A DNA stretch of 64,000 bases, from positions 1,178,001 through 1,242,000 of the forward strand of contig JALBUN010000009.1 of assembly GCA_025174535.1 (NCBI GenBank). The letters are read 5' to 3'. This DNA is from Cantharellus purpuraceus. Lineage: Eukaryota; Basidiomycota; Agaricomycetes; Cantharellales; Hydnaceae. Both the position numbers and the translations under genes were made by a program. The notes beneath the pieces are model-generated. The model ran no database searches, was not told where the DNA came from, and worked only from the letters and a program-made list of their open reading frames with translations. The number at the start of each line of letters is the position of its first letter. The stretch's first letter is position 1. Of the stretch, positions 747-59,640 are shown piece by piece.

Positions 747-837
747 TGGACGCTCTGGGAATCGAACCCAGGACCGTTCGCAAACAGATGCAGACTGCAA
801 ATGCTAAGCGAACGTTATACCCCTAAACCAAGCGCCC
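747..837 (-). tRNA. tRNA-Ala (anticodon AGC) with a short intron
   Basis: Read on the minus strand, the 7-bp acceptor stem pairs fully and contains a G3:U70 wobble pair, the classical alanine identity element. The T arm has a perfect 5-bp stem around TTCGATT. The anticodon loop reads TTAGCA, giving anticodon AGC, and is followed by about 19 nt that do not fit the mature loop before the 3' side of the anticodon stem (GCGAA). This is the usual nuclear tRNA intron position, after base 37. The end given includes the discriminator base. Confidence 0.93.
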
Positions 838-34545: not shown

Positions 34546-34689
34546 GTTGGATATCTGGTCGGATGACTCCTCATATTCAGAAACTGTTCCACTCGAAGTG
34601 CCCTAGTTCTTACGAAATATATGCTTTGTTTCCCAGTATACTCTCCGATCTCGACTTGCTGAGTTTATGCTAGTCGAACTATACCAGAA

Positions 34690-35660
34690 ACACATTGATA
34701 TAGCAAGGTTACTGTCATGACGTATTCTTACCCTGAATGACATAAGAGAGTCTCTTGACAAAGAAGGTTGACGGTTAAACAAGACATAGTCACCATCTCT
34801 TAAGAACCTCCTATAAGTGTAGCCATCCATTATTTCGTAGGATTCTACTTGATCCATACCATCGGTCCAGAAGACCCTCCCTAGTTCCGCTTCCTTCTTA
34901 AGACATTTAGCATTATGTTCGAAGCACGTTTCAGAAACCAAAACCTTATCAGTTGCTAGCTTCGGAATCATGATTTCGTTAATTCCTATTAATGGGTCAC
35001 CCGTGATAACAGATCTTATGGATCTATCAAGCCTCTTACCTTTTACTATTCCTCTAAAAATCCCTTCTTTACCAGATATCAATTTGTCGGTTACCGATCC
35101 CCTCCCTCCTGTTGCTATTTTTGAATATAGTTTACTTATAGCATGTCTATATACTGCGGTATTTCTTCTTTTATCATTCCTTTTGATAAAGTCCATTAAT
35201 AGGGAGTATTTCTGAGAAAGGTCAGAGGGCCATTCAACATCGTTCTTAGGTCTTACTCCTGGTGGAGGAACGAGTATATATCTTATGATAAAGTGACGTT
35301 CTCTGAAGTTCCTAAGCTCAAAAATATCCTTTATCTCCTTTGTCATATTATCTATATTAGGGAGTTCCTTCTCTATTACAATGTTGCACACCTTGCACTT
35401 ATAATTTTTAGGCCTTTTTATACTAACATTGTTACCACAATTCAAACATATTCTTCTCACCCTGTTCATAACGTCCCTATGAAACAAAGGATGTATTATA
35501 TAAGTTCCCAGATTTAGGTTCGCATAATGACCTTCACATTTACTCTTTTTACAAATTTCACAGTCCGCGTTAACTCCAAACCTAGGATCTGAAAGATCGT
35601 ATGTAGAGTTCAGGTTAAAAGAGGAGATCTTCCTCAAATCGCTCTCAGTTAGTACGTCTA
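34690..35660 (-). pseudogene. Fragment of a virus-like RNA polymerase largest subunit (RPB1-like)
   Basis: One long AT-rich minus-strand frame without introns, about 320 codons. It shows the RPB1 clamp zinc-binding signature (CEICKKSKCEGHY), a second CxxC pair group (ICLNCG and CKVC), GKRLDRSIRSVITGDP (family GKR..-.R.VI..DP) and GDYVLFNRQPSL (family DG..VLFNRQPSLH). It breaks off just before the catalytic NADFDGD loop at about 34690. It lacks a start codon and the first residues at about 35660, where repeat DNA begins. The divergence from nuclear RPB1, lack of introns and AT-rich codon use fit a nucleocytoplasmic large DNA virus or similar cytoplasmic element better than the host gene. It is a dead fragment. 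A linear cytoplasmic plasmid origin is an alternative. Confidence 0.8.
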
Positions 35661-36515
35661 AAGATCATATTTTTTTGGGAATTTTCCATGCAGAAATGAG
35701 TCTACAAACTTATTGTTCTGCTGGGCAAAGTTTTGGGACCCACATGGACCCACAAACCTTCGCAGATGTCAGCAGCCCCAAAGTCAGCCGGAGTCACCCG
35801 GACTACTGACTCATTTTCAATCACATGACTCATTTCAATCTCCGACTCAATCTGGTCACCACTGCCAGTAAATGCTCAATATCTTCGCAACCACTGCACC
35901 TCCTGACTCCATTTTCAGTGGAGAGTTCAATAGAAGCTGTGCCTACCCATAGCTGTGCTAATCAGCCCGGGAAACGAAGTATTGACCGAGTTATTTGGGT
36001 AATGGTGACTCATACAATGACTCCTGCCATGACTCATGCTATGACTCCCTCATGCTATGACTCCTTCCATGACTCATACCATGACTCCTGTGCTCTGAGT
36101 CACACTATGACTCCATCCATGACTCATGCCATGAGTCAGAGCAAATCCAAGCAGCTCATTGGCTAGGAAACTTCCACCCCCTTCTCACATATTCCACTAG
36201 CTTCCAGTAGGTTCCATCTATTAATAGGTAGAAGTTTCCAGTAGTATTAGTCAGCTCCTGTAAATACAATATAAAAGGAGCGTGAACTCTAGACTCTGGA
36301 AGTCTTATTCATTCCCTACTGCTAAGAAATGTATTACCTTCCTGCGTATTGTCTGCATTGACCATTACAACAGATTGTAACCAAAGTACAAACATTAAAT
36401 TGTTTCTGGAGTTGTGCTGCAGTAGGATTTGATATTCTTCTCAGCTGTTCATTCACGGAATTGTGGTGATTTAGAGTTTGCCCTAACACCATAATTTTGC
36501 GGGTTCCAAAACACA
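35661..36515 (+). mobile_element. LTR fragment (+) with a TGACTC array and TATA box
   Basis: The same sequence occurs, inverted, at 58271-59195. In this orientation there is an array with about eleven TGACTC and two GAGTCA between 35805 and 36140. A segment with GGAAACTTCCACCCCCTTCT follows, then TATAAAAGG at 36270, then a presumed transcribed part from TGAACTCTAGACTCTGGAAG to CCATAATTTTGCGGGTTCCA. Compared with the long version, several hundred bases between the TATA box and the transcribed part are missing. Confidence 0.72.
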
Positions 36516-37720: not shown

Positions 37721-38264
37721 TCCACCCTGTTTGTATGGGAACCACCTTTTCCCTATCAAATCCTATTTATGCAGCACCAATGTGCCATACTTTGCATTTC
37801 CATTCCTAAATATCAGCATATATTTGGTGCTTGTACCTGGAATGGACTTGTTCAAATATTCTCTATTTTTCCATATTTTTTCAGGAATATTCCATGCAGA
37901 ACTTGGCCCAGAATGCTCTCATTCTGCTGTGCTACAGTTGTGGACCCATAGGTGCCCACAAACCTTCACACAGCCGGCTCTCCACCTTTGGACCAGGCAT
38001 TTGGCCTGAATTCAAGCTCAGATGATGGGTCTCCGAGGCTGACGGCCTTATGTGAGTATGTCTGAATCCGATGGGGATGGATGTCTGGGTTCCTATGGTG
38101 ATGCTGATGCATCAATCGGAACCAGAGATGGATGGGCGGAATCGGCGGTGACAATCGGACAGGTAAATGGAGACGTAGCAGTTTCCAAATGGAGTATAGA
38201 TTTCATATGCGCGGGGATCTGGGTGGATCGGATGGGGATCTGGACGTTAATGAATATAGTCATA
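37721..38264. mobile_element. Retroelement internal fragment, duplicated at 54745-54970
   Basis: The part from about 38035 (ATGTGAGTATGTCTGAATCC) to AATATAGTCATAAC near 38265 is a diverged copy of 54745-54970, which lies directly upstream of a gag-like frame. The block with TTCCATGCAG and GTGGACCCA near 37887-37955 resembles 35684-35757, bordering the polymerase fragment. No intact frame. Confidence 0.6.
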
Positions 38265-39195: not shown

Positions 39196-39929
39196 AACAC
39201 CTCGGCCGTCCGCGTCACATCATGACGCCGTGAATGTGGCGTACCAAAGGGGAAAAGTTCGAGGTGTGAGATTAGACTTTCAACCGACAGCTTGGCCCGC
39301 CCACTCAAAGTGATGTCACTGACATCACGCCATGCTAGTGAACGTACGTATCACCACCGAAGGTCTACCATGAACCATTCTTGCAGCGATACCAGTTACT
39401 CGCCTCCGGGAAACTGCAAGGGCGGTAGCCCAACCCACTTGGGCAAACCGTTAGAGAACACCCAGAAAACATGTAATCCCCGGCATTCGCAACCTACGTT
39501 GGACTGGGCCTCGTTCAACTGTAAGGGGGGAGAGGCAGGTCTAAACGTCTTGCAGGCACGGCATATGTGTCTGAGATAGTCTACGATGACCAGAGTGCCG
39601 CTGTTGGGATGTCGACGTGGACCGCGCTTTGTGAGAGAGCGTGCGGTGCCGTCATCTAGTTGATACAGTAGTTGCATCTAACATCGTTGGTACTCTGACT
39701 GGAGAATGACTGTCGACAGGGGGCCCTGATGTGACGGTGATGAGAGCGTGTTGCTGCCGGTGGTTCCGATGCGTTTCGTCGGTGGGCTATCGGAGAGTCG
39801 CCGTGTGCTGTCGACGTCTTGGGGGTGGATCTAAGCGTCGCAGTTGTATGTACTTGTGCTGCGTTCACACGGTTAGGGGAAGAGTCACACGGTTTTAGGG
39901 GGCGATGCTTGGAGCGAAACGAAAGGATA
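39196..39929. other. ATG13 upstream region
   Basis: The first hundred bases are the HNH-flank repeat (see 29930-30110). The remainder, to the ATG13 start, is unique and contains no recognisable gene. Base composition shifts from AT-rich repeat DNA to GC-rich. Confidence 0.45.
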
Positions 39930-42900
39930 ATGAGCATGTCACTTGACTCTTCATCCAAGGCTGACCAGATTGCACTCAAGTTTTTCAACAAGTTTGCTCT
40001 CCTGGTTCACCATGCGCGCGCGACGCCGCATCTGCCGCAGGCCAAGGTGGACAAGTGGGTGAGCCATACGCATCGTCCACGCTCTCCTGTCCGTCCGCTC
40101 AGCGTTGTCGCCTGCAGTTCAACCTCGAGACGCCAGACACGGACCACTTTCGCGACCACCTCCGTCTCTACCGCACCCTCTCCTCCACCGCGCACTCGCT
40201 GCCTCCCTTTGAGCTGCAGGTGCTCCTGGCCGTCCCCGAGCTGGCCACCAACCAGGTGTTGGTCCTCACCGATCCCTCTGCCGCCCGCGTGCGCGTCGAG
40301 CCCACGCCCAGCCACGTTCTGCTCGAGTCGTGGGTCGTCGTCTTCCGTCCCGGCCGGCCCCCCGAGGACGACGGCGACGACGGCGACCGCCCGGACACGG
40401 CCCTCCCCAGCGTGTACAAGCAGTGCATCTCCGTCTTTCGCAGCATGTTCACGCTGCTGCGTGTCCTCCCCGCGTGGACGCTCTTTAGGAGACTGCGTCG
40501 CCCCGAGTCCAGCAACCTCGCGATCCACGTTCGTGTCGCGGCCCGCACCGGTGAGGACCCCCGCGTGCTCAGGTTTGGTGCGTGTCTGCCTCGCTGCGTG
40601 CTTGTGGTGTGCTCACGCCATGGGGATCCGCAGGCACGCCCCTGTCCGTCTCCGCCGCCTCGCTCCCCACCTCTCGCCACGCCTTTCCCCCCGTCACACA
40701 CCCACTCGGCACCCTCACCATCAGCACCACCTACCTGCTCTCGCCGCTCTTCCAGATCGACACCCTAGAGTCCCTCCTCTCCTCCCGCTTCCTCTCCCAG
40801 GACGACGAGTCCTTCACCCCCACGCTCACCGCCCGCCAACAGACCTCCGTCAGCGGCTCCCCCCTGCGCGCCAGCCTGCCGCGCTCCCCGCCCGGCCCCA
40901 GCCTCGCCGACCGCTTCGTCCTCCCCGCCAACACCGGCGCACACTCCCCCACCATGCGCGGCCACCCCGCCCCCCTCTCCCGCGCCCCCAGCGGCTCCGG
41001 CTCCGTGGGCAGCGCCTCGCGGCCCGTCTCGCTCCTCGGCGGCGTCTCGCCCGCCCGCAGCGCCAGCCCCACATCGGGCGGCGCGCTGCACACCCTCCCC
41101 GAGACACCCGCCCCGCCGTCGCCCTCGTCCCACGCGCCCACGCCCTCCGGCGCGCTCCCCATCCGCCGCCCCTCCATCAACGCCATCCACCCCTTCAAGT
41201 CCTCCACGCTCTCCTCGGGCGGGTCCCCGTCCCTCCACTCGCACTCGCACTCGCACTCGGGCGCCTCGACCAGCCTGCGCCACTCGCCGCTGTCGGGGTC
41301 CATGGCGGCGGGCCCCAGTCTGCCGTCGCGTCCTACGGGCACGTCGTTGTCTGCCTCGCCGTCTACGCGGGTGCCGCCCTCGCCGATGGCTGTGCGTGCA
41401 GTTGGCACTGGGGCGGGGGCGGGGGCTGGGGCAGGGGCTGGGACGCGTCCGTCGCCACCTGGGGAGCGTCCGCTGCAGGGGAAGCGGTATTCGAGCAGTT
41501 TTGGGCATCGGTATGCGGCGACGGGGGGTGCGGGGAGTGATGGGAGTACGGGCAAGCGGAGTGATGAGAAGGATAGACCTGCGGTAGGTGTCTTTTGCGT
41601 GCTTTCTCTCTTCCTTTCAGCGCTCCTCCTTTCTTTGGGGTGGTCGTTTTCACCTTTGGGCGTTGTGTTGTCGCCTGGTTGGATTCCGTGTTGCTAACAT
41701 TGTTGCTCCCTCTCCCCCCCCATGTGGTGTGTTTTTGTCGTTTTTGCAGAGCGCGTCGTTTTTGAGCACGATGACGGATGATGATGAGATTTCGGCGTTT
41801 GTGCAGGCGATTGATGCGAGAGCGCCGTTGAGCGTGAAGCGGACGGCGGGGCGGGATGGGTCTGGACAGGTGGAGGGTGGGAGGGGCGGGGGGCGGGGGT
41901 GGGAGCAGGGGGAGAGGGTGGAGCGGGGGAGGGACGGTGGGCAGGAGGAGCAAGAGAGGCGCGGTGAGGCGGGGGGGGATAGGAATGTGCTGCTGGGTGT
42001 TGGGGGCGAGATGGATGCGCCGCGGATGTGGAGGGAGGATGGGGCGGGACAGGAGATGGGGAGCGTGGGTGGGAGTGGGAGTGGGGACGGGGACGGGGAC
42101 GGGGATGGGTTTACTGTGGGGGCGGTGCAGGAGAGGCGTGGGGCGGGCCCGGCGGGTGTGGCGTCGGACGACAGAGAGGCGTCGACGTCGCTGTCACGCA
42201 CGTATAGGGACCATGTGGAATCGGAGCTGAAGCGCATGAATGATACGTTTGCGCAGAGTCTGGTGGGTCTTGAGGGAAGGCCGCGCAGGCGCACCGGGAC
42301 GGGGCTGGGGGCGGGGGCGGGGGCGGGAGCAAGGGCGCGGCGGATCAGTGTGCCTGGTGAGTGCCTCCGCATTCCGTGATGCACGGTGTTTGTTTTGACC
42401 CTGCGATGGTTTTTCCTTTCCTTGGCGGGTTTGGCTTTGGCTCATCTCCTGGCGCGTGATCGTGCGTGGTATTCAGACAGCGGCACTGGTATGCGGATGG
42501 GTACGACGACGACGGCACCCGCGCCGCGGCGTGGGTTATGGGTGCCGCCCCACTCGCCGGTTTCGCCAGGATCGCCTGCCAGCGCTGCCAGCGTCGACAG
42601 GCCAGCGGCGCGCAGCAGCCCGCTGCGGGCCGCGCTGGCGCTGCCCACCTCGTCCTCGCCCTCGCCCCCGGGCGCGTCTGGCTCGCCGTTTGATGGCTCG
42701 CCGGGTGCGTCTGCGTCTGTGTCTGGATCGGGGTCCGCGTCGGGGTCGGGGTCTGGCGCTGTGGATGCGGGGGGTCGTCATCATCATCAGCATCACCACC
42801 ACCATCATGAGCAGCATCATCATCAATACCATCATCCTCATCGCCATCATTATCGGGATCAGGATCAAGATCGTCATGGACGACAAGTACCACCGCTACA

Positions 42901-43120
42901 GCTGGCATTACCACTGACACCACCACTGCCACAGCACCATCAGCATGAACGGACGGCGTCGACCGCGAGCGGCTCGGATGAGATTATTGGGCGGCTTGAT
43001 TTGGATTCGGACGCGCAGCGGCCTGGGTCTGCGGCTGGGTCTGGAGATGGGTATGGGTATGGTGGTCATGGTGCCGGAGGGGGTGGTGCGGGATATGCAC
43101 GGCCGAATCCGTATCGTTGA
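39930..43120 (+). CDS. ATG13: Autophagy-related protein 13 (HORMA domain)
   Basis: Five exons: 39930-40058, 40118-40577, 40634-41583, 41750-42356 and 42477-43120; 929 residues, GT-AG and in phase. Atg13 is the regulatory subunit of the Atg1 kinase complex that starts autophagosome formation. The N-terminal HORMA domain covers about residues 1-230: KADQIALKFFNKFALLVHHA, PPFELQVLLAVPEL, LLESWVVVF, YKQCISVFRSMFTLLRVLPA, VLRFGTPLSVSAASLPTSRH and LGTLTISTTYLLSP. A long Ser/Pro-rich disordered region follows, then the conserved block SFLSTMTDDDEISAFVQAID. The C-terminal exon carries Gly/Ser runs and a His-rich stretch with many CAT/CAC codons. The coding region is markedly GC-rich against the AT-rich repeats on both sides, and it is the only intact host gene between 28 and 64 kb. 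The start MSMSLDSSSK could be the second ATG six bases downstream. Confidence 0.94.
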
Positions 43121-45200
43121 CCTGTGATGAGCCAGTTTGCTTTTTCTCATTCGCGTCTCGATTTCTTTCCATCTTCTCTCATGCTTTGGATACTTTGCGT
43201 TTGTTAATCTGGGAGTCTTTTTTCTTTCTTTCTTTTTCTCGTGCTTGTGTTTTGTGTTTTTGTTTTTGTGCTGGGGACCCTCGTCCGTTTCGTGCAGGCA
43301 TGCATTTGCATTGTTCCGTCCCGCCCTCTTGTCGTGTGGTCTTTTTTTTGTTATGTCTGCATTCTGCCCGGTTTCTTTTCTTTTCTTTTCTTGCTTGCTT
43401 GCTTGCTTGCTGTGTGCTCCATGCTTGCATCATGTTTGGCGCACGTTTTTGCACAAACCGGCTCGCGCTATGTATTTCCATCATCATCTACCATCTACCA
43501 CACAGCTCGCTTCCTTCCTTACTTCACCACACCACACCACACTTCACCACACCTCACCACCACTCTGCCATTTCTTCCCCCTCACCCCTCCCAACTTCCA
43601 TCATCAATCCCACGCTGCCGCCGCCGCCGTACCCCCTCCTTTGGATCCTGATTCGTCAACGTGTCCGCATTGAATAGAGCCCGTTCGTGCAGATGTACCG
43701 TACCGTACTAATATATATACACACATAGCTGTTGATACATAAGTAAAGAATCATCGATGCGGGGCGAGGCGAGGGGTGTCGTTTCGGATCTGGGTGCGTT
43801 GATGGTTGATGAGGCGTTGGGCGTTGGGGGGAGGACGGGCTTTTGTGTGGGAGGCGCGTAGGCGTGTGGCGTGTGTGTAGAGGCTAGGACTGGATTAATT
43901 GAAGTTACTGGTGTATGGAATAGGCCTAGCACTGGGTGCGTGTGAAAGGGGGGGGGAAGAGAGGGAAAGTCTGACCGGTTGAGTGGGAGCTCAGACTGGC
44001 TGGCTGGCTGGCTGGTGAAGCAGATGTTTTTATCTTTGTTGTGATCTGAACAGGATAATCTCAGTCCGTATATTGTGGATACGGCTTAGTGTAGTTACCT
44101 GAACAGGATAATCTACCGACATAAATATAAATACGGACTGGAGAAAATGTGAACTGATGTCTCTCACCTCGGTCCGTATATTGTGGATACAGCTGAGAAT
44201 GAGTGACCAGCTGCAGACATGTTATATACGTCTGCAGTGGCGAAAACTATTTTATGTAATGTGTAGGTGCGACAATGCATGAAACAACGGCACTGTTGGG
44301 GCATGACACACGGTGACGGTCATTAATGTGGATAAATCACACAGCGCATGTAAGCCACAGACGCAGATATGTTCCATATTGCAACAATCTTTGGATGCGT
44401 AACATGTGATGGTATGTCTAGACCTGCCAGTGCTTCCATCACTCAGGCACCGCTCGTCGTATATATTGTGCGGACCAGCCAGTGCACGAACTCACTGGGG
44501 TCTGAAGCGCTAGCGATTGGTAATTTCGCGCAGTGGAAAAAGTTGTGAGCTTGCACCATATTTTTTTTTTTGCCATGATATCAGCCGGGCACTGCCGTCA
44601 GTTTCGTATCCACGGTCCTTGCGTCAGTGATGGAGTACACTGTGTGACTGATGCCTTGGTGGTCACGGCGACGGAGGTAAACCCCTTGATTATATATAAA
44701 TAAACGACGAGAGCAATATTAAAAAGACATCACAGGAGAGTGTAAATGGTCTCTAAGAAATACAGCGCTAAAAAAACAGTATCGTCGCAGAGAGCAGAAG
44801 ACGCGTCTATAATTAAAAAAACATCATTGAGGTTCTGGGGATTCTAGTGCCATCAACGTGCGATCCTGGGCTAGATGCGTCAGGAAGATGAGTAGCATAT
44901 CACGGGGGTGGAACATACTTGTATCAACCTTCGCGACAATCCCTGCACATGCCTGTGCTCTGTCTCGAATACCGCTCTCGGTGACCACTCATCTCGCGGC
45001 ATGAATGGTGATGGTCGCACGCCGCATTCGCATATGCGCATGCGCCACAGCTTGCGCGTTGTCCATGCGTGCACCCCTCGTCATTGTGGTATGGACTCTT
45101 CAGGCAGCGAGATGACATGCAGTCTTGCTCCTCTACGCGAGCATTCGAGAGGCACCCACAGCCAAAGTACTTTGTAACCCCCACCAAAACAGTGTAGCAC
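43121..45200. other. ATG13 3' flank with simple repeats
   Basis: Contains pyrimidine tracts, a CTTG run (about 43390-43409) and a GGCT run (about 43995-44014). It also holds a small interspersed repeat at 44050-44195 (GAACAGGATAATCT twice, and CCGTATATTGTGGATAC twice). No gene recognised. Confidence 0.5.
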
Positions 45201-47333: not shown

Positions 47334-47335
47334 TA

Positions 47336-47901
47336 AGATGCTTGTTCAGAAATACAACAAATACGTATATACAACCTATTTTCCTCAAATTTTATACAAT
47401 ACACTTCAATTCAAACTTATTTTCATATTTCAACATGATTCTCAAATTTTACACAATATACTAGATTAAAACATATTGTGATATTTTGGCATAATTCTCA
47501 AAAATAATTCTTTTTTTCCCCATTTAGTGGTGGCAACTCCCTTGAGGGAACATCCAAATATCATTGATTCTTTCTTATACAATACTTGTAACATAATTTG
47601 AACTATCTTTAATCCTCACCTGGTATTTGTATATCTAAATACCCTATATAATACCAATTATATTCATATATACATTCCTATTATATCCATGTAAATGATT
47701 ATGTTCATCTCAACCAAATATCTTATTTTAAAGTTTATTAAAATATAGAATATATGTTTATATTTATGAAAATTTCACACATCCAAAATCTTTTAAGATA
47801 TCCAAATTGTAACTCCCTGGCTTTATGTATCATTGAAATCCTGATGTATATCTCCTATACATCAGAATATTGTATACTGACATGATTCCGAACAAGCGTC
47901 T
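47336..47901. repeat. Left terminal direct repeat of the 7.4-kb element
   Basis: AT-rich, non-coding and nearly identical to 54190-54741. Differences are a 15-bp insertion near 47523 (after GTGGTGG) and scattered substitutions and small indels. It has its own short inverted termini, so it has the form of a MITE. Confidence 0.92.
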
Positions 47902-47979
47902 AGGGAGGTCATTTTAAAAACAAAAATCATCACCTTATATCATCAACAAGCTTCTTTCTCCATAGATTTAGACATGCCA

Positions 47980-48456
47980 TTATGAATTCTTATCTTCATT
48001 GGTATGTCTGGACACTGTCCAACACAGCAAAGCCAATAGTATACCAATACTAGTTATGTAGATCATGTGCACTGTACAGCCAAGATATAGTTTCTGCCTA
48101 TTTATATCTGGGCCTGGCTGTCTAACAAACGCCTGATTCACATGTGTGGTTATAATGTGTGCATATCCAGAGGTTGGATCAGAACCACTTACAAATCTGT
48201 TGGTTTTATTCAGAAAACCTACAAATTCTGCTACAAAAATAGGATCACTTTCATTATAGCCTATTTTATCAGGTTGTAGACCAAGAAATACATATTTGAT
48301 ATGAGGATACTTTGAAAGCTGGAACACTTCACCTTCAGCATATGAACGGTCCAGATACTGCCCAAAGGGGTACCAGTCACACGGTGGATTGCTGTGAAAA
48401 GGCTTTTGGTAAAACTGTTGATTGAGACGCTGTTTCAGTAATGGATCAGTCTCCAT
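47980..48456 (-). CDS. Unknown 158-residue tail-anchored membrane protein
   Basis: Intronless frame from ATG 48456, starting METDPLLKQRLNQQFY. The N-terminal 120 residues are soluble and aromatic-rich. A single hydrophobic segment (IYITSIGILLALLCWTV) lies close to the C-terminus and is followed by a short charged tail, so type II or tail-anchored membrane insertion is likely. No family recognised. It is the first minus-strand gene inside the left terminal repeat. Confidence 0.6.
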   Translation of the reverse strand: METDPLLKQRLNQQFYQKPFHSNPPCDWYPFGQYLDRSYAEGEVFQLSKYPHIKYVFLGLQPDKIGYNESDPIFVAEFVGFLNKTNRFVSGSDPTSGYAHIITTHVNQAFVRQPGPDINRQKLYLGCTVHMIYITSIGILLALLCWTVSRHTNEDKNS

Positions 48457-48639
48457 AGATACCTATAAGTATAAAACATACAAATATTCAATTTTATTCT
48501 GGGAAAAAAAATTTACAGTTGAATGTAGCATAGGTATACAATAATACTATTACTATTGTCTTTCCAATACTCTTTAATACATTCTGTAGATTTAAAGCTT
48601 GATGTTGCTTCCCAAGTTTTCTCTGCATAACATTTCCAT

Positions 48640-49963
48640 TTAACTAAATATTCTACGTACTTTCCTTTTTCTTTGCCTTATTATTTGTTCTACTTCATTT
48701 TCAGTCTCATAATGCATCTCCACATCATACTCACATCTTTCTAATAGTTGTTGTTGAGATTGAGTCATCTTGTCAACATCTTCTGCTCTTTCCAGTAATG
48801 ATCTGGGTGGCTCAATATCTGGGTCCTCTTCCTCAGGGTAATCAAAATATTGTTCACACCATTTTTCATGATAAGGGGATGGTTTGATCTTACGTAGTTC
48901 TACAAATTTCTTAATATTCCATAATAGACATGCTACCTTTAATTCCAGATTAAAGACAGCAGGATTTGTAGTTCTAATAGATCTCTTATTATCAAATTTT
49001 TCAAACAATATTGCAAACCCTCCAAAGAATGCTTCTACTGTTGAACGAAAGGCACCAAACTTCTTATTAAAAATCTTTTCTTCAGGTTTAAGTTCAACAT
49101 TTTTGGCTTCCGAAAAGGATAAAAGAAGTTCTTAGGCTTTAATATACTTGCCTTTACTACTTCTGGAATAGCAGATGGATAAGCTCCATCAAAGCCTATC
49201 TGATCATTCTTATCTATTTTATTCCATACAGCCATCTCTACAAACATTTTTGCATCAGGATTTAGTTTACATGCCAATGAAGGTGAGGTGAATAGAACCA
49301 TTTGATTAATGTCAATGCATACTTGAGTACGAAATCCTGCCTTTTTAAATTTATGTGAGTACCCCTCTTCAGATGCCGATCCAATCAAAATTCCTCTTGT
49401 ATCATGACCATCAAGAAGTAATGTCACTGATTCCATTTTTGGAGGATTCTTTATAAGAGCTGATAATATCCTTATTATTATATTTGAGAACATTGTACGC
49501 AGTGAATCAGTAACTTGTTTATCTAGATCAAAGTTAAGATGATGCAGACGACCATAAAATTCCTTATGAACATCATAAAAGCTACTTGATGGCATGAAAT
49601 TTCCTATTTCTTCATAAGTAGGACCTTTGAGTAGATGATATAGTACTAACAAGCCTTTTTCTATCTCTCTATAAGGTGTAGAATGTTCTTCAACTGAAAA
49701 CAATACCACAAGAAAGAAAAATACTGGTATTGGTCCAAGCTTGTTATATACTACTTTTTTACATCATCCATGTCATTCATATCTTTTAGTTTTGTTCTAT
49801 GATATTTTTTGTGTTCTAAGACAGGCCACTTTGTGTATAGAAAATTCCAATGATTGTCCATCAACTTATTATATGCTCTGTCCCTTTGATCATTCCACAT
49901 TTTAAGTTGCTTAAGCTCTTTCTCTTTTTGCTCCTTTGTGTGTTTTTGCTGGTCTGAGGGCAT
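48640..49963 (-). pseudogene. DDE-type transposase-like gene, interrupted at two A-runs
   Basis: Three consecutive minus-strand frames (49963-49751, 49709-49035, 49008-48640) read as one protein of about 440 residues. The first shift lies in a run of six A at about 49760, the second in a run of five A at about 49111; one extra A in each would join the frames. Candidate acidic residues are in LLLDGHDTRG, GFDGAYPS and FRSTVEAFF, an order and context typical of DDE_Tnp_4 (IS5/Harbinger-related) transposases. The N-terminus is basic and charged (KEQKEKELKQLKMWND) and could bind DNA. The downstream part continues with KVACLLWNIKKF and an acidic tail. Either it is inactivated or it uses slippage on A-runs; I cannot tell. 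Family placement is moderate. Confidence 0.7.
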
Positions 49964-50059
49964 TTTGACTAAGATACTCTTATATTACAGTAAAACAAAA
50001 ATATGTTCATTTTTTTGATAATTGAATTTTAAATTAAATAATATTTATTCTATGAAGCT

Positions 50060-50674
50060 ATGTTGTCTGTCTCTAAGCAAGTTGTTCGTAAAATATCTAC
50101 TGTCTTTGTTAGAAAAGAACCAGAGGATGATGAAAATCCTTTGTATATAGACTCTGACACCATCTACATAAAATTCAGATTAAGAAATCCCCCAAAGGAC
50201 TTCTTTCCAGCTGGATTGGTTTCTCAGGAAAGAGATAAAACACCAGAAGCACTGTACAATAAGATGATTGAAAAGGGCAATGAAATAAGTAATTCAACCT
50301 GGATTCAACAAAATCATTGTATGTCAAGTCTGCAAACCATGTAACAGGATAATCTGCCTAGTTGTAATATTTCTATTGCTAGAGAAACTGGCAAGAAGTG
50401 TGGTATTTCTATTGCTGGGGAAACTTGTAAGAACTGTGATGTGTATAACAATTTGGTTACATCAATGGTTGTTGCATTGAAACAACAGCAGAGAGTTTTC
50501 AAGAAAAGTAAAATCACAATCTATGGTATGATCATAACTAAGGATGGTAGGTTAAAATTATATGAAACCACCAATAACAATCAGGGTGTTTCAATTGTTG
50601 TATATCCTTCCTCTGGATACAGCATAGAAGCTCAGTTTGAAGAGTGTTCTAATGCTATTTATTCCAAAGTATAA
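50060..50674 (+). pseudogene. Unknown 205-codon frame with one in-frame TAA
   Basis: The only plus-strand gene of the element. The frame from ATG 50060 to the stop at 50674 is open except for TAA at 50342, directly followed by CAG. After the stop it continues with a tandem repeat of about 13 residues (CNISIARETGKK, CGISIAGETCKN) and then VALKQQQRVFKKSKITIYG. The N-terminal half contains IYIKFRLRNPPKDFFPAGLV. No known family. CAA to TAA is a single C-to-T change, so simple decay is the most economical reading; stop-codon read-through is possible. Confidence 0.55.
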
Positions 50675-50721
50675 GAAATCAGATGTTCAAAGAATCCTCA
50701 TAAGGAGTTGATTTAAAAGTC

Positions 50722-50946
50722 CTAGTTTCTACACTCACAACATTTTTCATCTATTTTCACTTGGATAATTTCAAGATTTGAACTTTTGTTCACACAACAA
50801 TAAGTACCATTAGTATCATGATGAGTATTTTTTGAATGTTCAGAGCTCTTAGGACATTTAATATCCTTACAATCTGTAACTACAGATGTAGTAGTTATAT
50901 GATTGCACTTCCAAGTAATTTGAATTTTTTCACTATCACCACACAT
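50722..50946 (-). CDS. Unknown small cysteine-rich protein (74 residues)
   Basis: Intronless, starts MCGDSEKIQITWKCNHITTT. It has nine cysteines, including two CC pairs and CCEC near the C-terminus, with several histidines, which suggests metal binding or disulfides. No signal peptide. No known family. Confidence 0.45.
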   Translation of the reverse strand: MCGDSEKIQITWKCNHITTTSVVTDCKDIKCPKSSEHSKNTHHDTNGTYCCVNKSSNLEIIQVKIDEKCCECRN

Positions 50947-50997
50947 GCCTTCATTTGAGTGAATAAAAATATTGCATATTCACTTATCTGATTTATC

Positions 50998-51177
50998 TTA
51001 TACTTGTTGTAGTGCACGTAGTGGTAGCTGAATCTCATTGTCATCATAAGTAACAGTTATTAGCAAAGTGTCATCTGACAAAGTGCCAGTTACTAATGTA
51101 ACAATACCTGTCACTGTCATTTGTGTTCTTGCATTGATAAATGATACCTTATCACCAATCTCAGGTATATTCAACAT
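50998..51177 (-). CDS. Unknown 59-residue beta-rich protein
   Basis: Sixty codons including the stop, on the minus strand. It starts MLNIPEIGDKVSFINARTQM and ends ALQQV. Alternating hydrophobic and Thr-rich segments (VTGIVTLVTG, LLITVTYDD) suggest a small beta-barrel, reminiscent of KOW/SH3-like folds, but no family is recognised. It lies between two other minus-strand frames with short gaps of 38 bp (to 51216) and 51 bp (from 50946), consistent with compact viral-type packing. Confidence 0.5.
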   Translation of the reverse strand: MLNIPEIGDKVSFINARTQMTVTGIVTLVTGTLSDDTLLITVTYDDNEIQLPLRALQQV

Positions 51178-51215
51178 GGTGTCTCTGGTTATTATATATT
51201 AATTTTAAAATCTCA

Positions 51216-51986
51216 TTATTTCTCATCTAATTTCCTATCAAGTATATCTACAAACTTCTTAAATGCTTCAAAACACTGTAGAACATTCTTTCTACTATTA
51301 ATATGTTTCATACCTGTTACTGTTACAGGGAAACAACACCTTACATTTGTTATCACTTCTGAAAACAACCCTTCTGTGATAGCATGATCAAGCTCTCTTG
51401 TAACAGTTACTAGGTAAAACTGGGGGACTTTTCTCGATGTTTGAATGCAAGGTATTGTCATTTCCTCTAAAGCACTTTTTCCCTTATTCTTCCTAATCTT
51501 GTTATTCAATTGAAAAACTGCTATAGCTCTTGCTATAATCTGCGGTTCTGGATTTATCTGATTTGTGTTCTCATGTGTAAAAAACAGTATCTCATTATCA
51601 TTTTTTATAACACACATCTCTATAACATTTCTTGTTATATTTCTCCTCACATTCATAGGGATTTTATTATGAGTGATGATTAATCTTTCATCCTTGTCAT
51701 ATTTCATGAGAAAGAGCACTTCTCTGGTAAAATCATTAACCAACGTAGATCCTTCCCTGACTCTAGTAGATCTATCTAAGTATGTAAAAAATTTTCTTGA
51801 AGACTCCTTTAAACATTTCACATCATCTTTTTTGTAATCAAAACTGAGGATCTCATCATCAATATCTAAAGTAATATCTCTAAAATCTGTCTCAAAAAAC
51901 TGTTTAGTCCATTGTGTGTCAACCATTATACCATAATCCCAAAGATCACAAGAACTCCAATCATTGCACTTCTTATCTTTACCCAT
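51216..51986 (-). CDS. Unknown 256-residue protein
   Basis: Intronless, starts MGKDKKCNDWSSCDLWDYGI. It has a mixed alpha/beta composition with many charged residues, no membrane segment, and a Lys-rich middle (NNKIRKNKGKSALEE). It is the longest undamaged frame of the element together with the coiled-coil gene. I looked for nuclease, helicase, kinase and polymerase motifs and saw none that I trust. Confidence 0.55.
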   Translation of the reverse strand: MGKDKKCNDWSSCDLWDYGIMVDTQWTKQFFETDFRDITLDIDDEILSFDYKKDDVKCLKESSRKFFTYLDRSTRVREGSTLVNDFTREVLFLMKYDKDERLIITHNKIPMNVRRNITRNVIEMCVIKNDNEILFFTHENTNQINPEPQIIARAIAVFQLNNKIRKNKGKSALEEMTIPCIQTSRKVPQFYLVTVTRELDHAITEGLFSEVITNVRCCFPVTVTGMKHINSRKNVLQCFEAFKKFVDILDRKLDEK

Positions 51987-52261
51987 GATGTCAATAAAGA
52001 AGGATATATAAAATTTATTTCATTTTTTACTAGATAGTTCTGAAGAGCAGAATGTTGTAGTAAACATCCATATTTTTATCTAATATTTATAAATTGAATT
52101 ATATATATTTTCTAAAGTTGTCAATAGCCAGATGCATGCACTTGTTCTGAATACTACAACAAAGTCCCATACAGAATTCCCTGTCCTTTCATCTATCATT
52201 CTTCTACCAGTTCCTTGTTTCCTATCTTGCCAGTCTTTCATTCCAAATTCTTTGCTGCATA

Positions 52262-52587
52262 GCTAAATAGGTGTACCAGCCGATTGGATATGATCATATC
52301 ATGATAATGACGTCGGATGGAAGGTCACCTTGTCAGGAGCAGTTTGATCACATTATCAAAGGACAACCTTTTGGCTGTGAGGGTTGATAATGATGCACTT
52401 ACTGAGCAGACAGTAGGTGAGACTTTGCAGCGGCATGGTGTACCAGATAATTGAATCGTTGTCCTTGAGCAGTCTAATGATGTCACTCGGATCACATCAT
52501 TAGACTGCTCATGGACAGCCATTCACTCCAAGGTGACCTTGTCAGAAGCATGGAATGCCTTGTATCCTACGTCTTCGGAGGCTTACA
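52262..52587. repeat. GC-richer insertion with hairpin and flanking direct repeat
   Basis: Composition differs from the AT-rich surroundings. AAGGTCACCTTGTCAGGAGC near 52320 recurs as AAGGTGACCTTGTCAGAAGC near 52530. Between them is a perfect 18-bp stem with a 10-nt loop (52466-52483 with 52494-52511). A short plus-strand frame (VDNDALTEQTVGETLQRHGV) looks like a retroelement gag scrap. Probably a small insertion in the element. Confidence 0.55.
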
Positions 52588-52869
52588 TTACTGGGTTCTC
52601 CCTCTACATCTTTTTCTTGAACTAGGAATTTGAGATTGATCAGAGTCTGAATCAGATCGTTCCTTAGACCTTTTTTCTTGATGCCTTGAACTAGGAGTTT
52701 GAGATCGTTCCTTAGACCTTTTTTCTTGATGCCTTGAACCTTGAGTCATTCCTTGCTTCCATGTTTGAAAATTAATCCTATTACCATCTACGTCATATGA
52801 TGACATTTCATTCTTCCTAGTATATATTGTAGATAGTTTTCTAGGCTCACCATTTATGAATAATTCCAT
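52588..52869 (-). CDS. Unknown RS-rich repeat protein (93 residues)
   Basis: Starts MELFINGEPRKLSTIYTRKN and ends in a basic tail with tandem copies of SSRHQEKRSKERS. Arg/Ser repeats of this sort bind RNA or act as nuclear signals in other proteins; the role here is unknown. It is 29 bp downstream of the coiled-coil gene on the same strand. Confidence 0.5.
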   Translation of the reverse strand: MELFINGEPRKLSTIYTRKNEMSSYDVDGNRINFQTWKQGMTQGSRHQEKRSKERSQTPSSRHQEKRSKERSDSDSDQSQIPSSRKRCRGRTQ

Positions 52870-52898
52870 TCTATTTAGTCTACAAGACTGATCTGAGT

Positions 52899-53657
52899 CT
52901 ATAAGTAGTCTACACCTCTTTTCACTATCTTAAATGTCACCTTTCTGGTACCATTTTCCTGTAACCTTGTTACCTCCTGTTCTTGTTTTCCAGCCCAGTG
53001 ATTCAGATCAAATTTCCAGTCAACAATCTCAGATATTATTGCTTTATATTTATCACCCTGTTTCTGAAGTTTATTAATGTCTGTTCCAAGTTCCACTACA
53101 GTATCATCTGTTTCTACAATCCACTCATGCACTTCAGATTTCCATTCCACAATGTCTGATATTGTTGCAATACATCTATTAACCTGTTTCTGAAGTTTAT
53201 GAATATCTGTTCTATGGTCCAATATAAGATTCTCTGCATTATGTGTATTGACCTGTTGATGAATATCTGTTCCATGGTCTGATATTGTGGCAACACACCT
53301 ATTAACCTGTCTCTGAAGTTTATGAATATCTGTTCCAAATCCTGATACAATATCATTCATTTCACTCATCCATTCATCTAAATTCTCTTTCCTGTCTGTC
53401 AAAGTAGTTATAATTGTATTTTTTTCCTCAACCTGTTTCTTAAGCACCTGAATTTCCTGACTCTGGGAATTAACCTGTTGTTCAAGTATAGTGATCTGCC
53501 TATCCTTTTCACTCATCCAAGACTTGACATTTATAAGATCAGATATTAATTCATCTTTTACTTCCATTTGACTTGCCATAGCTTTTATCAGTGCATCATT
53601 GTCACTTATCCAGCCTTTGATTGCTTTTATATCTTCAAAGATTTGTGGCATTTTCAA
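52899..53657 (-). CDS. Coiled-coil fibre-like protein (252 residues)
   Basis: Intronless, starts MKMPQIFEDIKAIKGWISDN. Almost the entire length is heptad-like (for example ITILEQQVNSQSQEIQVLKK). Residues about 107-200 hold repeats of the type GTDIHKLQRQVNRCVATIS, three to four diverged copies, and WMSE/WIVE-type elements recur every 40-50 residues. There is no transmembrane segment. Such an architecture is seen in viral fibre or trimeric tail proteins and in structural coiled coils; no homologue is recognised. Confidence 0.6.
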   Translation of the reverse strand: MKMPQIFEDIKAIKGWISDNDALIKAMASQMEVKDELISDLINVKSWMSEKDRQITILEQQVNSQSQEIQVLKKQVEEKNTIITTLTDRKENLDEWMSEMNDIVSGFGTDIHKLQRQVNRCVATISDHGTDIHQQVNTHNAENLILDHRTDIHKLQKQVNRCIATISDIVEWKSEVHEWIVETDDTVVELGTDINKLQKQGDKYKAIISEIVDWKFDLNHWAGKQEQEVTRLQENGTRKVTFKIVKRGVDYL

Positions 53658-54189
53658 ATCCCTCTCTGCTTATAAAACAGAAATGAAAAAACATAATAAT
53701 CATTTTTTCTGAACATTTGATATTTTGTATAGGCAGTAGATATATACATCTTGCTTTCTTAATAAAATGATTATTATGTTTTTATGTTATAAGCATTATG
53801 AAGATGCTCTCTTTTATGCTTCAATGCAAGATAGAGTTTGATAGAAGAGTTAATGATTGGTATATATCTCGGATAGGATCCCTCCATGATTTGTTTCTGA
53901 GGTAAGTTCCTTTATAAATATCAAGGTTCCAATCACTGACTTTATACAGATGTACTGATGGCACACTTCTGGAACAGAAATTAACAGAGTTATATACTAG
54001 TATGGAGCAGGATCATTATTTTCCACCACTTTGGATGGAAAATCTGATGGTATTGCACCCTAAAGTACGAGTTATAGTCATACAGTCTTATGTTAGAACA
54101 AGATTATCTACCACTATGCCCTAACTAAGTTACTTTGTTTTAAAAATAGCTTCACTGCATTAAAGGTGTTTGTTTCCAAGACTTTCCTA
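53658..54189. other. AT-rich non-coding right interior of the element
   Basis: No frame longer than a few tens of codons with coding character. It lies between the coiled-coil start and the right terminal repeat and may hold the upstream promoter region of the minus-strand genes. Confidence 0.45.
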
Positions 54190-54741
54190 AGACGCTTGTT
54201 CAGAAATACAACAAATACGTATATACAACCTATTTTCCTCAAATTTTATACAATACACTTCAATTCAAACTTATTTTCATATTTCAACATGATTCTCAAA
54301 TTTTATACAATATACTAGATTAAAACATATTGTGATATTTTGGCATAATTCTCAAAAATAATTCTTTTTTCCCCATTTAGTGGTGGAACATCCAAATATC
54401 ATTGATTCTTTCTTATACAATACTTGTAACATAATTTGAACTATCTTTAATCCCCACCTGGTATTTGTATATCTAAATACCCTATATAATACCAATTATA
54501 TTAATACAGACATTCCTATTATATCCATGTAAATGATTATGTTCATCTCAACCAAATATCTCATCTTTTAAAGTTTATTAAAATATAGAATACATGTTTA
54601 TATTTATGAAAATTTCACACATCCAAAATCTTTTAAGATATCCAAATTGTAACTCCCTGGCTTTATGTATCATTGAAATCCTGATGTATATCTCCTATAC
54701 ATCAGAATATTGTATACTGACATGATTCCGAACAAGCGTCT
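54190..54741. repeat. Right terminal direct repeat of the 7.4-kb element
   Basis: Near-identical to 47336-47901, with perfect 12-bp inverted termini (AGACGCTTGTTC and GAACAAGCGTCT) and TA on both sides. Confidence 0.92.
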
Positions 54742-55101
54742 TACATGAGTATGTCTGAGTCCAACGGGGATGGATGTCCAGGTTCCTATGGTGATGCTGA
54801 TGCATCAATTGGAACTGGAGACAGATGGGCAAGATTTGGTGGTGAAAATCAGACAGATAATGGAGACGTGATGGTTTCCAAATGGAGTATAGATTTCATG
54901 TGCATGGGGATCTGAGTGGATTGGATGGGGATCTGGGTGTTAATGAATATAGTCATAACAGTATCTCTCCATTTAAGGCTGAGCCCCTGAGGCCTCATGT
55001 CCATGGATTGAATAGGTGAGATGGTTGGATGCAGTTGGATTTATACTGGGGGTCTGGAGACATATAAAAGGAGGGGCATGATTGAGGTTTTATCCTCAAC
55101 A
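54742..55101 (+). mobile_element. Retroelement leader resuming after the insertion
   Basis: From ATGAGTATGTCTGAGTCCAA this matches 38041-38265 for about 220 bp, then leads into the gag-like frame. It lies right of the inserted element and probably continues the sequence interrupted at 47335. Confidence 0.55.
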
Positions 55102-56907: not shown

Positions 56908-58270
56908 TTAAAGATTCATAAGAGGGCCAGGTTTGTCTGGATAAGTGGAGTGAAAATCAGAGATGGATTCGGATGCATGATTGAGTTTGGATGCAGAGAT
57001 CCATGAGGACTCTTCATCAGTGCCTTTGTATCCAGTCCATTTGACTAGGTACTGGAGCTTGCACTTGTACCGATGATCAATCTTTGAGTCCAGGATCTCA
57101 GATATCTCATATTCATTATCTCCTTCGATGATGATCGGAGGAGGTGGAGGTTGCATGCAACCAGAGATCTCATTTGTAGTAGCAGGTTCAAGCATTGATA
57201 TATGGAAGACTGGGTGAACTGCTCAGAAGTGGTCTGGGAGGCGGAGGGTGAAGGACCTGCTGCCTGCACAAGCAATGACCTCATAAGGACCTAAGTATTT
57301 CTTGGAGAGTTTCTTCGATGGATGGGTGGTCCAGAAGTGTTCTGCCTTAGTGAATACTTTGTCTCCGATTTGCAGAATGCAGTGTCGGTTCACAGAGACT
57401 TGGTATTGTTTCTGAGCATTGGAGATGGTTTCCCAGAGATGTTGGTGTAGTTGATTGAGGTCAGTTATGAATTGGCAGGCTTTGGTGGAGGTGAGTTCCT
57501 TCTCAGGGTGGACGGAGATGTTTGAATGGTAGCCTTTATTAGCAAAGGACAGAGAGACACCGGTAGTCATGTTCAGAGTGTTGTTGTAGGCAAACTCTGC
57601 GATTGGAAGTAAATCAGCCCAGTTGTCCTGTTGATAGTTACAATAGACTTGGAGATATTGTTCCAGGGACTGATTCATTTGTTCCATTTGTCTGTCTCCT
57701 TCAGGATGGTATCCAGAGGTGAAATGAAGCTTCATGTTGAGAGCCTTTCCTAATGTGCAGAAGAAGGAGGACATGAACTCTGAGCCCTGATTGGACGTGA
57801 CATGCAATGGGACTCCATGTTTAGAGAATATGTGGAGAATGAACAACTTAGCTAGTGAGGCGGAGGTGATGGTGTCATGTGTTGGAATGAATAGTGACTG
57901 TTTAGTGAACCTGTCAACAATCACAAGTACGGCGTCATATCCGAGCAATGGGAGGAGTTTCTCTATGAAATCCATGGAGATGGAGTTCCATGGTTGCTCT
58001 GGGACTGGAAGTTTCTTAAGCATTCCATAGGGTTTGTGCCTTTGTGATTTTGAGTGCATACATGTGGTACAAGAGTTACAGTAGTGTTGAATGTACTCTC
58101 GCATTTTTGGCCATACATAGTCTCATCAGATTAACCCTTGTGTGCGATTTTGCCCAAAATGGCCAGAGATTGGGTGGTCATGATAATACTGCAAAACTTG
58201 GAGTCAGAGACCATTGGTGTTGGGGATGTATATCTGGTCATTGTGTTGGAGGTGTCCTTGTTTTGGAACC
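56908..58270 (-). pseudogene. Chromovirus (Ty3/Gypsy) integrase with C-terminal chromodomain, decayed
   Basis: Minus strand. Remains of the H2C2 zinc region appear at 58220-58090 (HDHPISGHFG then CNSCTTC), with several stops. The catalytic core at 58104-57223 shows MDFIEKL (first Asp) and GYHPEGDRQMEQMNQSLEQY (Glu), but the second Asp of the usual SDRGSEF is Asn (TSNQGSEF). A single in-frame TGA at 57223-57225 separates the core from a chromodomain: EISEILDSKI, LQYLVKWTGY and SSWISASKL. The chromodomain would direct integration to marked chromatin. Reverse transcriptase and RNase H are absent; the 5' side joins LTR sequence at 58270. Confidence 0.88.
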
Positions 58271-59214: not shown

Positions 59215-59640
59215 GAAGTTGAAATCAAAGGCCGGCAGTGAATCCAAGAGGGTAAGGCCTTAAGGACTTACAACTGAGCGCAAGGCTTCAGTTCACCCAC
59301 CAACCAAATGCACTCGCTGTGTGCGGCGGTGTGCGGTGAACCAAATCAACTCGAAGGTTGGAATAGCAAATCGAAGGCCGGCGGTGAACTAAGAGGGTAA
59401 GGCCTTGAGGATTTACAACTGAGCGCGAGGCTTCAGTTCACCCAGCAACCAAATGCACTCGCTGTGTGCAGCGGTGTGCAGTGAACCAAATCAATTCAAA
59501 GGTTGGAATAGCAAATCGAAAGGCAGGCAGTGAAACAGAGAGGGGGCCTTAAGGATTTACAACTGAGCGCGAGGCTTCAGTTCACCCAGCAACCAAATGT
59601 ACTCGCTGTGTGCGGCAGTGTGTGGTGAGTAAGTGCAGGC
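59215..59640. repeat. Tandem repeat, about 147-bp unit, three copies
   Basis: Blocks AAGGCCTTAAGGACTTACAA, CAAGGCTTCAGTTCACCCA, CCAACCAAATGCACTCGCTG and GTGTGCGGTGAACCAAATCA recur three times in order with a period of about 147 bp and modest divergence. The last unit is incomplete. Non-coding. The next 370 bp to 60007 hold no recognised feature. Confidence 0.85.

Follow-up and report, generated by a model that had tools for sequence, protein, structure and literature searches.

Introduction

The layout in which an interior lies between two long terminal direct repeats (LTDRs), each with short inverted ends of its own, has been described for the KolobokP DNA transposons of animals (PMC9587614). 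Their LTDRs measure about 450 or 660 bp, with inverted ends of 11-18 bp in the oyster; LTDRs also occur alone with target duplications, tandem units share an LTDR, and a DDE transposase gene is paired with a nuclease gene. The KolobokP paper considers this layout unlike that of any other DNA transposon and leaves its molecular pathway open (PMC9587614; statements cited to this and the other papers below refer to excerpts of them). Here, we analyze a 7.4-kb element (47336..54741) in a 64,000-nucleotide stretch of the fungus Cantharellus purpuraceus (assembly GCA_025174535.1, contig JALBUN010000009.1, positions 1,178,001 to 1,242,000), hereafter called the window. On balance, we favor the view that it is a multi-copy fungal DNA transposon with a PHIS/IS5 (PIF/Harbinger-like) transposase and the order LTDR-interior-LTDR, whose whole units probably arise via a single-LTDR stage and replicative insertion.

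The window element resembles KolobokP in this order, in the inverted ends of each LTDR, in its lone LTDRs with duplications, in its tandem units with a shared LTDR, and in the pairing of a DDE transposase with a nuclease-type gene, although in the window family the latter is a nuclease-fold gene with an altered motif. The first-pass annotation of this DNA knew of no described fungal element with this gene set; novelty of the layout as such is not upheld, since KolobokP shares it (PMC9587614). KolobokP was the only match for the layout that we found in the literature, and no PHIS/Harbinger or fungal element with LTDRs was found there, in a search outside which lay subscription papers, Repbase Reports and preprints. 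A Crypton paper (PMC3212892) was considered as a match for the layout and set aside, as it concerns short direct repeats. In contrast to the animal KolobokP, the window element is fungal and belongs to another superfamily, having a PHIS/IS5-type transposase with a chromodomain frame and a PD-(D/E)XK-fold protein; it is also longer (7.4 kb or more) and carries several extra genes (PMC9587614). The C/DxxH motif that KolobokP-type transposases have between the second D and the E is not present in the transposase of the window family, and the His-Me finger (His-Cys box) nuclease of KolobokP had no Pfam match in any frame scanned.

An IS5/Harbinger-type DDE transposase, 3-bp duplications and a preference for C/TNA/G sites (slashes bound the triplet) are shared with the PHIS element NuwaII (PMC4482050). 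Its inverted ends are 13-46 bp long and mostly start with GG, whereas those of the window family are 11 bp long and start with GA, and most autonomous NuwaII elements have a Myb/SANT second protein, which Pfam did not detect among the window frames (PMC4482050). A word search of that paper gave no occurrence of 'direct repeat'. The pseudo-compound transposons and translocatable units of the IS26/IS6 family also have an interior between directly repeated mobile elements and undergo tandem amplification, and circles with a single repeat have been proposed for them (PMC7986276). They are bacterial, however, with the transposase gene within the repeat, while that of the window element is in the interior. 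The same paper points to other pathways for IS903, a member of the IS5 family (PMC7986276).

Structure and copies of the element

The repeats and target triplets of the window copy are as follows:
47336..47901: left LTDR, 566 bp, with inverted ends at 47337-47347 (GATGCTTGTTC, one change) and 47890-47900
54190..54741: right LTDR, 552 bp, with inverted ends at 54191-54201 and 54730-54740
47334-47336 and 54741-54743: target triplets, TAA on the left and TTA on the right, a mismatch

The two direct repeats with inverted ends in each, as claimed in the first-pass annotation, are thus present; they are 95% identical in alignment, with 18 gap positions that include one 15-base gap. The inverted ends had been given as 12 bp. 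They exist, but are 11 bp long: 29 complete lone LTDRs, when lined up, have the ends GACGCTTGTTC...GAACAAGCGTC. The outer A and T are part of the target duplication, given that other letters stand in their place in lone copies inserted at ATC, ATG or AAG. The AT bias of the element is borne out by the 1-kb bins between 47 and 55 kb, which have 31-38% GC, as compared to mostly 42-53% elsewhere in the window (exceptions are a stretch of 66-70% at 40-43 kb and a few bins near 39-42%).

The left end of the approximately 567-bp LTDR occurs 628 times in the same genome (305 + 323; at most two mismatches), while the reversed control gave 0 occurrences. Hundreds of LTDRs stand alone, with their own target duplications; having both inverted ends, an LTDR can act by itself as a miniature inverted-repeat transposable element (MITE). 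For the interior, 79 first-look candidates, 23 of which were scored, gave 86 matches, the long ones at 93-100% identity. Further copies with the same gene set, which the first-pass annotation had proposed to look for, therefore exist, as dozens of interior copies. Among the 23 loci L021-L043, L039 and L042 have a deletion at the junction after the left LTDR, and the other 21 read TAGGGAGGTCATTTT there (TAGGGGGGTCATTTT in L033); the right LTDRs of the units are preceded by ...GACTTTCCTAA. In addition, two tandem arrays whose units share the middle LTDR are found on contigs C45 and C38, with matching outer triplets.

A diverged copy on contig C35 has a left LTDR in the same place, with ends GACACTTGTTC..GAACAAGCATC and about 75% identity over the repeat and the adjoining interior. 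Its right LTDR was absent at the guessed place and among the 40 places scored, and further LTDRs of this branch were found at 81-97% identity. As the branch has a left LTDR and further repeats, the composite LTDR design is probably older than the recent burst. This subfamily (L080, G000:C35:12300-13300; C35:12528-18034) also carries a transposase and a full-length gene of the 256-residue type described below.

Target duplications and empty sites

A TA duplication had been proposed for the element. It is replaced by a 3-bp duplication, as seen from lone copies at ATC, ATG, AAG and CAA sites. The triplets on the two sides are identical in 26 of the 29 lone LTDRs, where 17% would be expected if the sides were independent. 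Both outer ends were read in 24 whole units, of which 18 have matching outer triplets (chance, 17%); these 18 include the units of C36 and C38, which share one site and are not independent. The mismatches are the window copy (TAA/TTA), L031, L032, L035, L037 and L075, and L024 was excluded from the count due to its truncated right LTDR. The target is mostly C/TWA/G, with T as the first letter in 30 and A as the third in 34 of 44 triplets. Among lone copies C precedes the triplet in 16/26 and G follows it in 17/26, which makes this a preference and not a strict requirement.

Empty sites, which had likewise been proposed for a search, were found for three of the four whole units tested and for the copy on C5. 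With the joined flanks of the four units, 40 of 744 candidates were scored and 65 genomic matches were obtained, distributed as 11, 28, 26 and 0 per site. These matches cross the junction, some weaker ones being shorter by up to 34 bases. Since they run through the junction, the three target sites lie in multi-copy sequences whose other copies are empty. The site of the C5 copy is found empty, at 88% identity, within an extra 540-bp stretch of L028 and L030. Together, the outer 3-bp duplications and the empty sites show that the whole unit inserts as one piece. The bacterial-style composite design envisaged from the window alone, i.e. two MITE-like units around cargo with a transposase inside, is thus supported by many copies.

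The flanks on C36 and C38 are 99.8-100% identical over more than 930 bases, with a single unit and a tandem unit, respectively, at the same site. The same degree of flank identity is seen between C1:3848745 and C37, and both pairs of contigs are probably alternative haplotypes kept in the assembly. Two stretches of the window, 38044-38122 (94%) and 54740-54827 (85%), are similar to the target site of the C36/C38 units in its empty form; the second of these stretches sits directly at the right end of the element.

Comparison of the left and right repeats

In the 18 units with both repeats read, the left and right LTDRs of a copy differ on average by 0.69% (gap columns not counted), and by 0.00% in 6 of them. 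Shuffled left/right pairings average 2.0%, and none of 20,000 shuffles was as low as observed. Four further units show differences of 0.38, 0.18 and 0.00% where the triplets match, and 0.88% where they do not. Between the same 18 copies the interiors (2.7 kb) differ by 0.38%, as compared to 2.05% for the left and 2.07% for the right LTDRs. For example, L034 and L036 are 0.11% apart in the interior and 2.48% in the LTDRs, while the two LTDRs of each copy are identical. The LTDR haplotypes are mosaic, and many copies have the same mosaic at both ends. These results suggest that, whenever the element jumps, a single template serves for both of its framing repeats.

The end alleles were also compared. 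Contigs C1-C17 have 28 pairs of same-strand ends at a spacing of 6-9 kb; 23 of these pairs have one end allele, 5 the other and 0 are mixed; it should be noted that this count admits only ends fitting one of two exact motifs, and that the pair C3:1369484/1376813 is not a unit, its second member being a lone repeat. The A end-allele is concentrated in paired ends (45/77 vs. 10/93, one A pair being false). Furthermore, units with unmatched triplets have more divergent LTDRs than units with matched triplets (5 vs. 13 units, one-sided Mann-Whitney p 0.006). The two features would be expected together if later crossovers between units break both. Finally, L035, L038, L040, L041 and L075, which are at different sites, share a left LTDR haplotype that is absent from the 28 lone copies compared, and the first four of these also have similar interiors.

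The transposase and the nuclease-fold protein

The frames concerned, all on the minus strand, are:
48516..48677 (-): chromodomain frame, PF00385 at E 3.5e-5, with the bit score just under the cut-off
48643..49131 (-): predicted C-terminal part of the transposase with the catalytic E (GAFRSTVEAFFGG), split from the core frame in the window copy
49038..49763 (-): predicted transposase core with two D residues (LLLDGHD, GFDGAY), forming one frame of 374-456 residues with the C-terminal part in many other copies
49751..49963 (-): predicted N-terminal frame of the transposase, 70 residues in the window copy
51216..51986 (-): 256-residue protein of a PD-(D/E)XK nuclease-fold family, with D and K of the motif replaced (IEM..HEN)

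By its sequence, the transposase is a DDE_Tnp_4 protein of the PHIS/IS5 type, accompanied by the chromodomain frame. PF13359 (DDE_Tnp_4) was matched in 12 of 13 aligned members, the best with an E value of 1.7e-10; the window family itself scores 20.4 bits, under the cut-off of 24.8. The chromodomain frame lies downstream of the transposase, +1 out of frame, in the 22 loci (of 23) in which this stretch was readable. In the diverged copy C35:12528-18034 the transposase match continues through the chromodomain, unlike in the young family.

The 256-residue protein is a member of a family with the PD-(D/E)XK fold. In the window family its active-site letters are altered: all 15 loci read at this stretch (12 copies) have IEM..HEN, and the catalytic D...(D/E)xK motif is absent. 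The relatives P0059, P0060 and P0062 have TDV..EDK and P0061 has TDV..ENK, while P0063 (QTLK) and P0064 (ADV..EDR) fall outside the catalytic pattern. P0059 and P0061 are different proteins, each listed with a longest contig of 10,497 bases, and perhaps come from one metagenome contig. A fold model of the 256-residue protein itself reached a predicted local distance difference test score (pLDDT) of 59 and gave no reliable structural match, and the relative P0060 was modelled in its place. A viral fold library returned numerous weakly scoring exonucleases and PD-(D/E)XK proteins (2/684 matches at E <= 0.001), and the PDB sequence search gave nothing useful. Within the genome, 78 rows of the nuclease-fold gene include 14 undeleted and 42 partly deleted copies; the latter are deletion derivatives, and the most numerous lineage is without part of the gene.

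A proposed cycle and its alternatives

We propose that the transposase could act on the two ends of one LTDR, which would give a lone insertion, or on the outermost ends, which would move a whole unit. A new whole unit would pass through a single-LTDR, probably circular, stage: a crossover between left and right LTDRs would produce a one-LTDR circle and leave a lone LTDR behind, the LTDR of the circle may exchange sequence with other LTDRs, and replicative insertion of the circle would leave two identical daughter LTDRs, one on each side of the interior, as in the cointegrates of bacterial IS26-type elements. With a single repeat that is then duplicated, left and right would be identical at birth, and exchange of the one repeat with others would produce high diversity of the repeats next to low diversity of the interiors. 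A plain composite transposon would be expected to have left LTDRs nearer to those of sister copies than to their own right partners. The opposite is seen in 13 of the 18 copies, where the left LTDR is closer to its partner than to the left LTDR of the copy nearest by interior. In addition, an LTDR haplotype shared at different sites by copies with similar interiors favors repeats that travel with the interior, which is why the IS26-like cointegrate is preferred here.

Several points weigh against this proposal. The remaining 5 of these 18 copies show the reverse, with a left LTDR nearer to that of the closest copy by interior than to its partner, and L023 and L038 have LTDRs 1.59% apart in spite of matching triplets. 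Four-gamete failures are found in the interiors (83/276 site pairs) as well as in left (102/231), right (90/190) and lone LTDRs (240/465); those in the interiors indicate that gene conversion among copies is active, and this might equalise left and right. The lone copies used for comparison were picked either because they resemble the window repeat or because they have an exact end motif. The one-repeat circle is inferred from the left/right identity. Lastly, we know of no eukaryotic PHIS transposase for which replicative cointegrate formation is established.

The main rival is plain cut-and-paste movement of whole units, as in bacterial Tn5/Tn10, followed by gene conversion with partner and lone LTDRs that keeps left and right alike. 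The recombination visible among interiors, the hundreds of donor LTDRs, and the unlike LTDRs of L023 and L038 all fit this explanation. However, it would need both a frequent input of foreign LTDR sequence, as LTDR divergence is five times that of the interiors, and its transfer to the partner each time, and it does not sit well with the unlike LTDRs kept by copies with mismatched outer duplications or with end alleles that are the same on both sides in all C1-C17 pairs. We regard it as rather unlikely. Alternatively, a target that already has an LTDR might receive a one-LTDR circle through gap repair or homologous recombination; both LTDRs and the duplication would then be those of the earlier lone copy. 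This docking is model b1 of the KolobokP paper (PMC9587614). Docking accounts for the left/right identity and for LTDR diversity far above that of the interiors, and would suit the C36/C38 site, where the middle LTDR of the tandem unit has a different haplotype. It is made improbable by the left LTDR haplotype that units at different sites share and that was not seen in the 28 lone copies, which as a biased sample are not decisive, and by the concentration of the A end-allele in paired ends, which implies that LTDRs mostly travel with the interior.

The pairs of almost identical terminal repeats, the many lone (solo) repeats and the tandem units would also be consistent with a non-autonomous long terminal repeat (LTR) retrotransposon with captured genes, in which reverse transcription makes left and right identical. 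We give this very little weight, since the ends are GACGC..GCGTC with 11-bp inverted ends instead of TG..CA, the duplication is 3 bp, Pfam gave no reverse transcriptase, RNase H or protease among the scanned frames, no stretch resembling a primer-binding site follows the left LTDR (TAGGGAGGTCATTTT, by eye), and a DDE_Tnp_4 transposase is inside. Least credible are a relic of a small DNA virus, which the first-pass annotation suggested because the element is AT-biased and tightly packed, and a chance joining of two MITEs with host genes between them. According to that annotation, chance joining would follow if the repeats were elsewhere only independent MITEs and the cargo genes never co-occurred. 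Hundreds of the repeats stand alone, yet the same gene set recurs between two repeats in dozens of copies, and a diverged subfamily has its left LTDR in the same place; these argue against chance joining, which was rejected. No viral hallmark was matched among the frames in Pfam or PHROGs: the PHROG matches were coiled-coil ones, a weak one to a plus-strand fragment and a weak one to the relative P0060. IMG/VR, scanned with the transposase and the 256-residue protein, held no relatives of either, and Padloc gave none.

Other interior genes and the rest of the window

The remaining features of the interior are:
47980..48456 (-): 158-residue frame whose C-terminal part has a hydrophobic stretch that, by eye, resembles a tail anchor; the other copies that span the region have open frames of 162-167 residues
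50060..50674 (+): plus-strand gene, which a stop interrupts in the window copy and which is a single 222-residue open frame in most copies
50722..50946 (-): Cys-rich small frame, 74 residues from the ATG; open frames of 62-85 residues in copies
50998..51177 (-): small frame of 59 residues starting MLNIPEIGDKVSF; a 66-residue open frame of constant length wherever read
52490..52494: point where the window copy lacks a GC-richer stretch of about 540 bp that is present in many other copies
52588..53651 (-): gene for a coiled coil with an RS-repeat tail, one open frame of 355-375 residues in several other copies

The eight to nine genes of the first count come to about seven, because several frames are parts of single genes in other copies; the coiled-coil/RS gene, for instance, appears in the window copy as two frames (52899-53651 and 52588-52869). 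No gene was seen in the LTDRs, and a large protein search gave no homologue of the tail-anchor-like protein. A codon-position test of the interior genes found no excess of third-position changes; as the copies look recent, it has no power to detect selection. The empty counterpart of the site targeted by the C5 copy lies in the same type of GC-richer sequence as other copies have at the 52490-52494 point.

Elsewhere, the window contains a GC-rich region (39744-43674; 66-70% at 40-43 kb) in which both strands carry numerous long frames that overlap; the one scanned (39744-41537) had no Pfam match. Other features are a retrotransposon integrase with a Tf2-1-type SH3 domain (57226-58122, minus strand), RNA polymerase Rpb1 domains 1 and 2 (34606-35664, minus strand), a tandem array of a 145-bp unit in 2.8 copies (59222-59622) and a tRNA-Ala (AGC) found by ARAGORN (747-837, minus strand).

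Implications

A second case of this layout, in another superfamily and another kingdom and again with a nuclease-fold gene, suggests that the layout is workable and has been reached more than once. The comparison of left and right repeats bears on the mechanisms listed in the KolobokP paper. It is also a warning that paired near-identical terminal repeats with solo copies, usually read as LTR retrotransposons, can be a DNA transposon. It is possible, although we put it at less than even, that a eukaryotic DNA transposon independently evolved the composite LTDR design together with an IS26-like cycle of one-repeat circle, recombination with the genomic pool and replicative insertion. If so, LTR-like identical ends would arise without reverse transcription.

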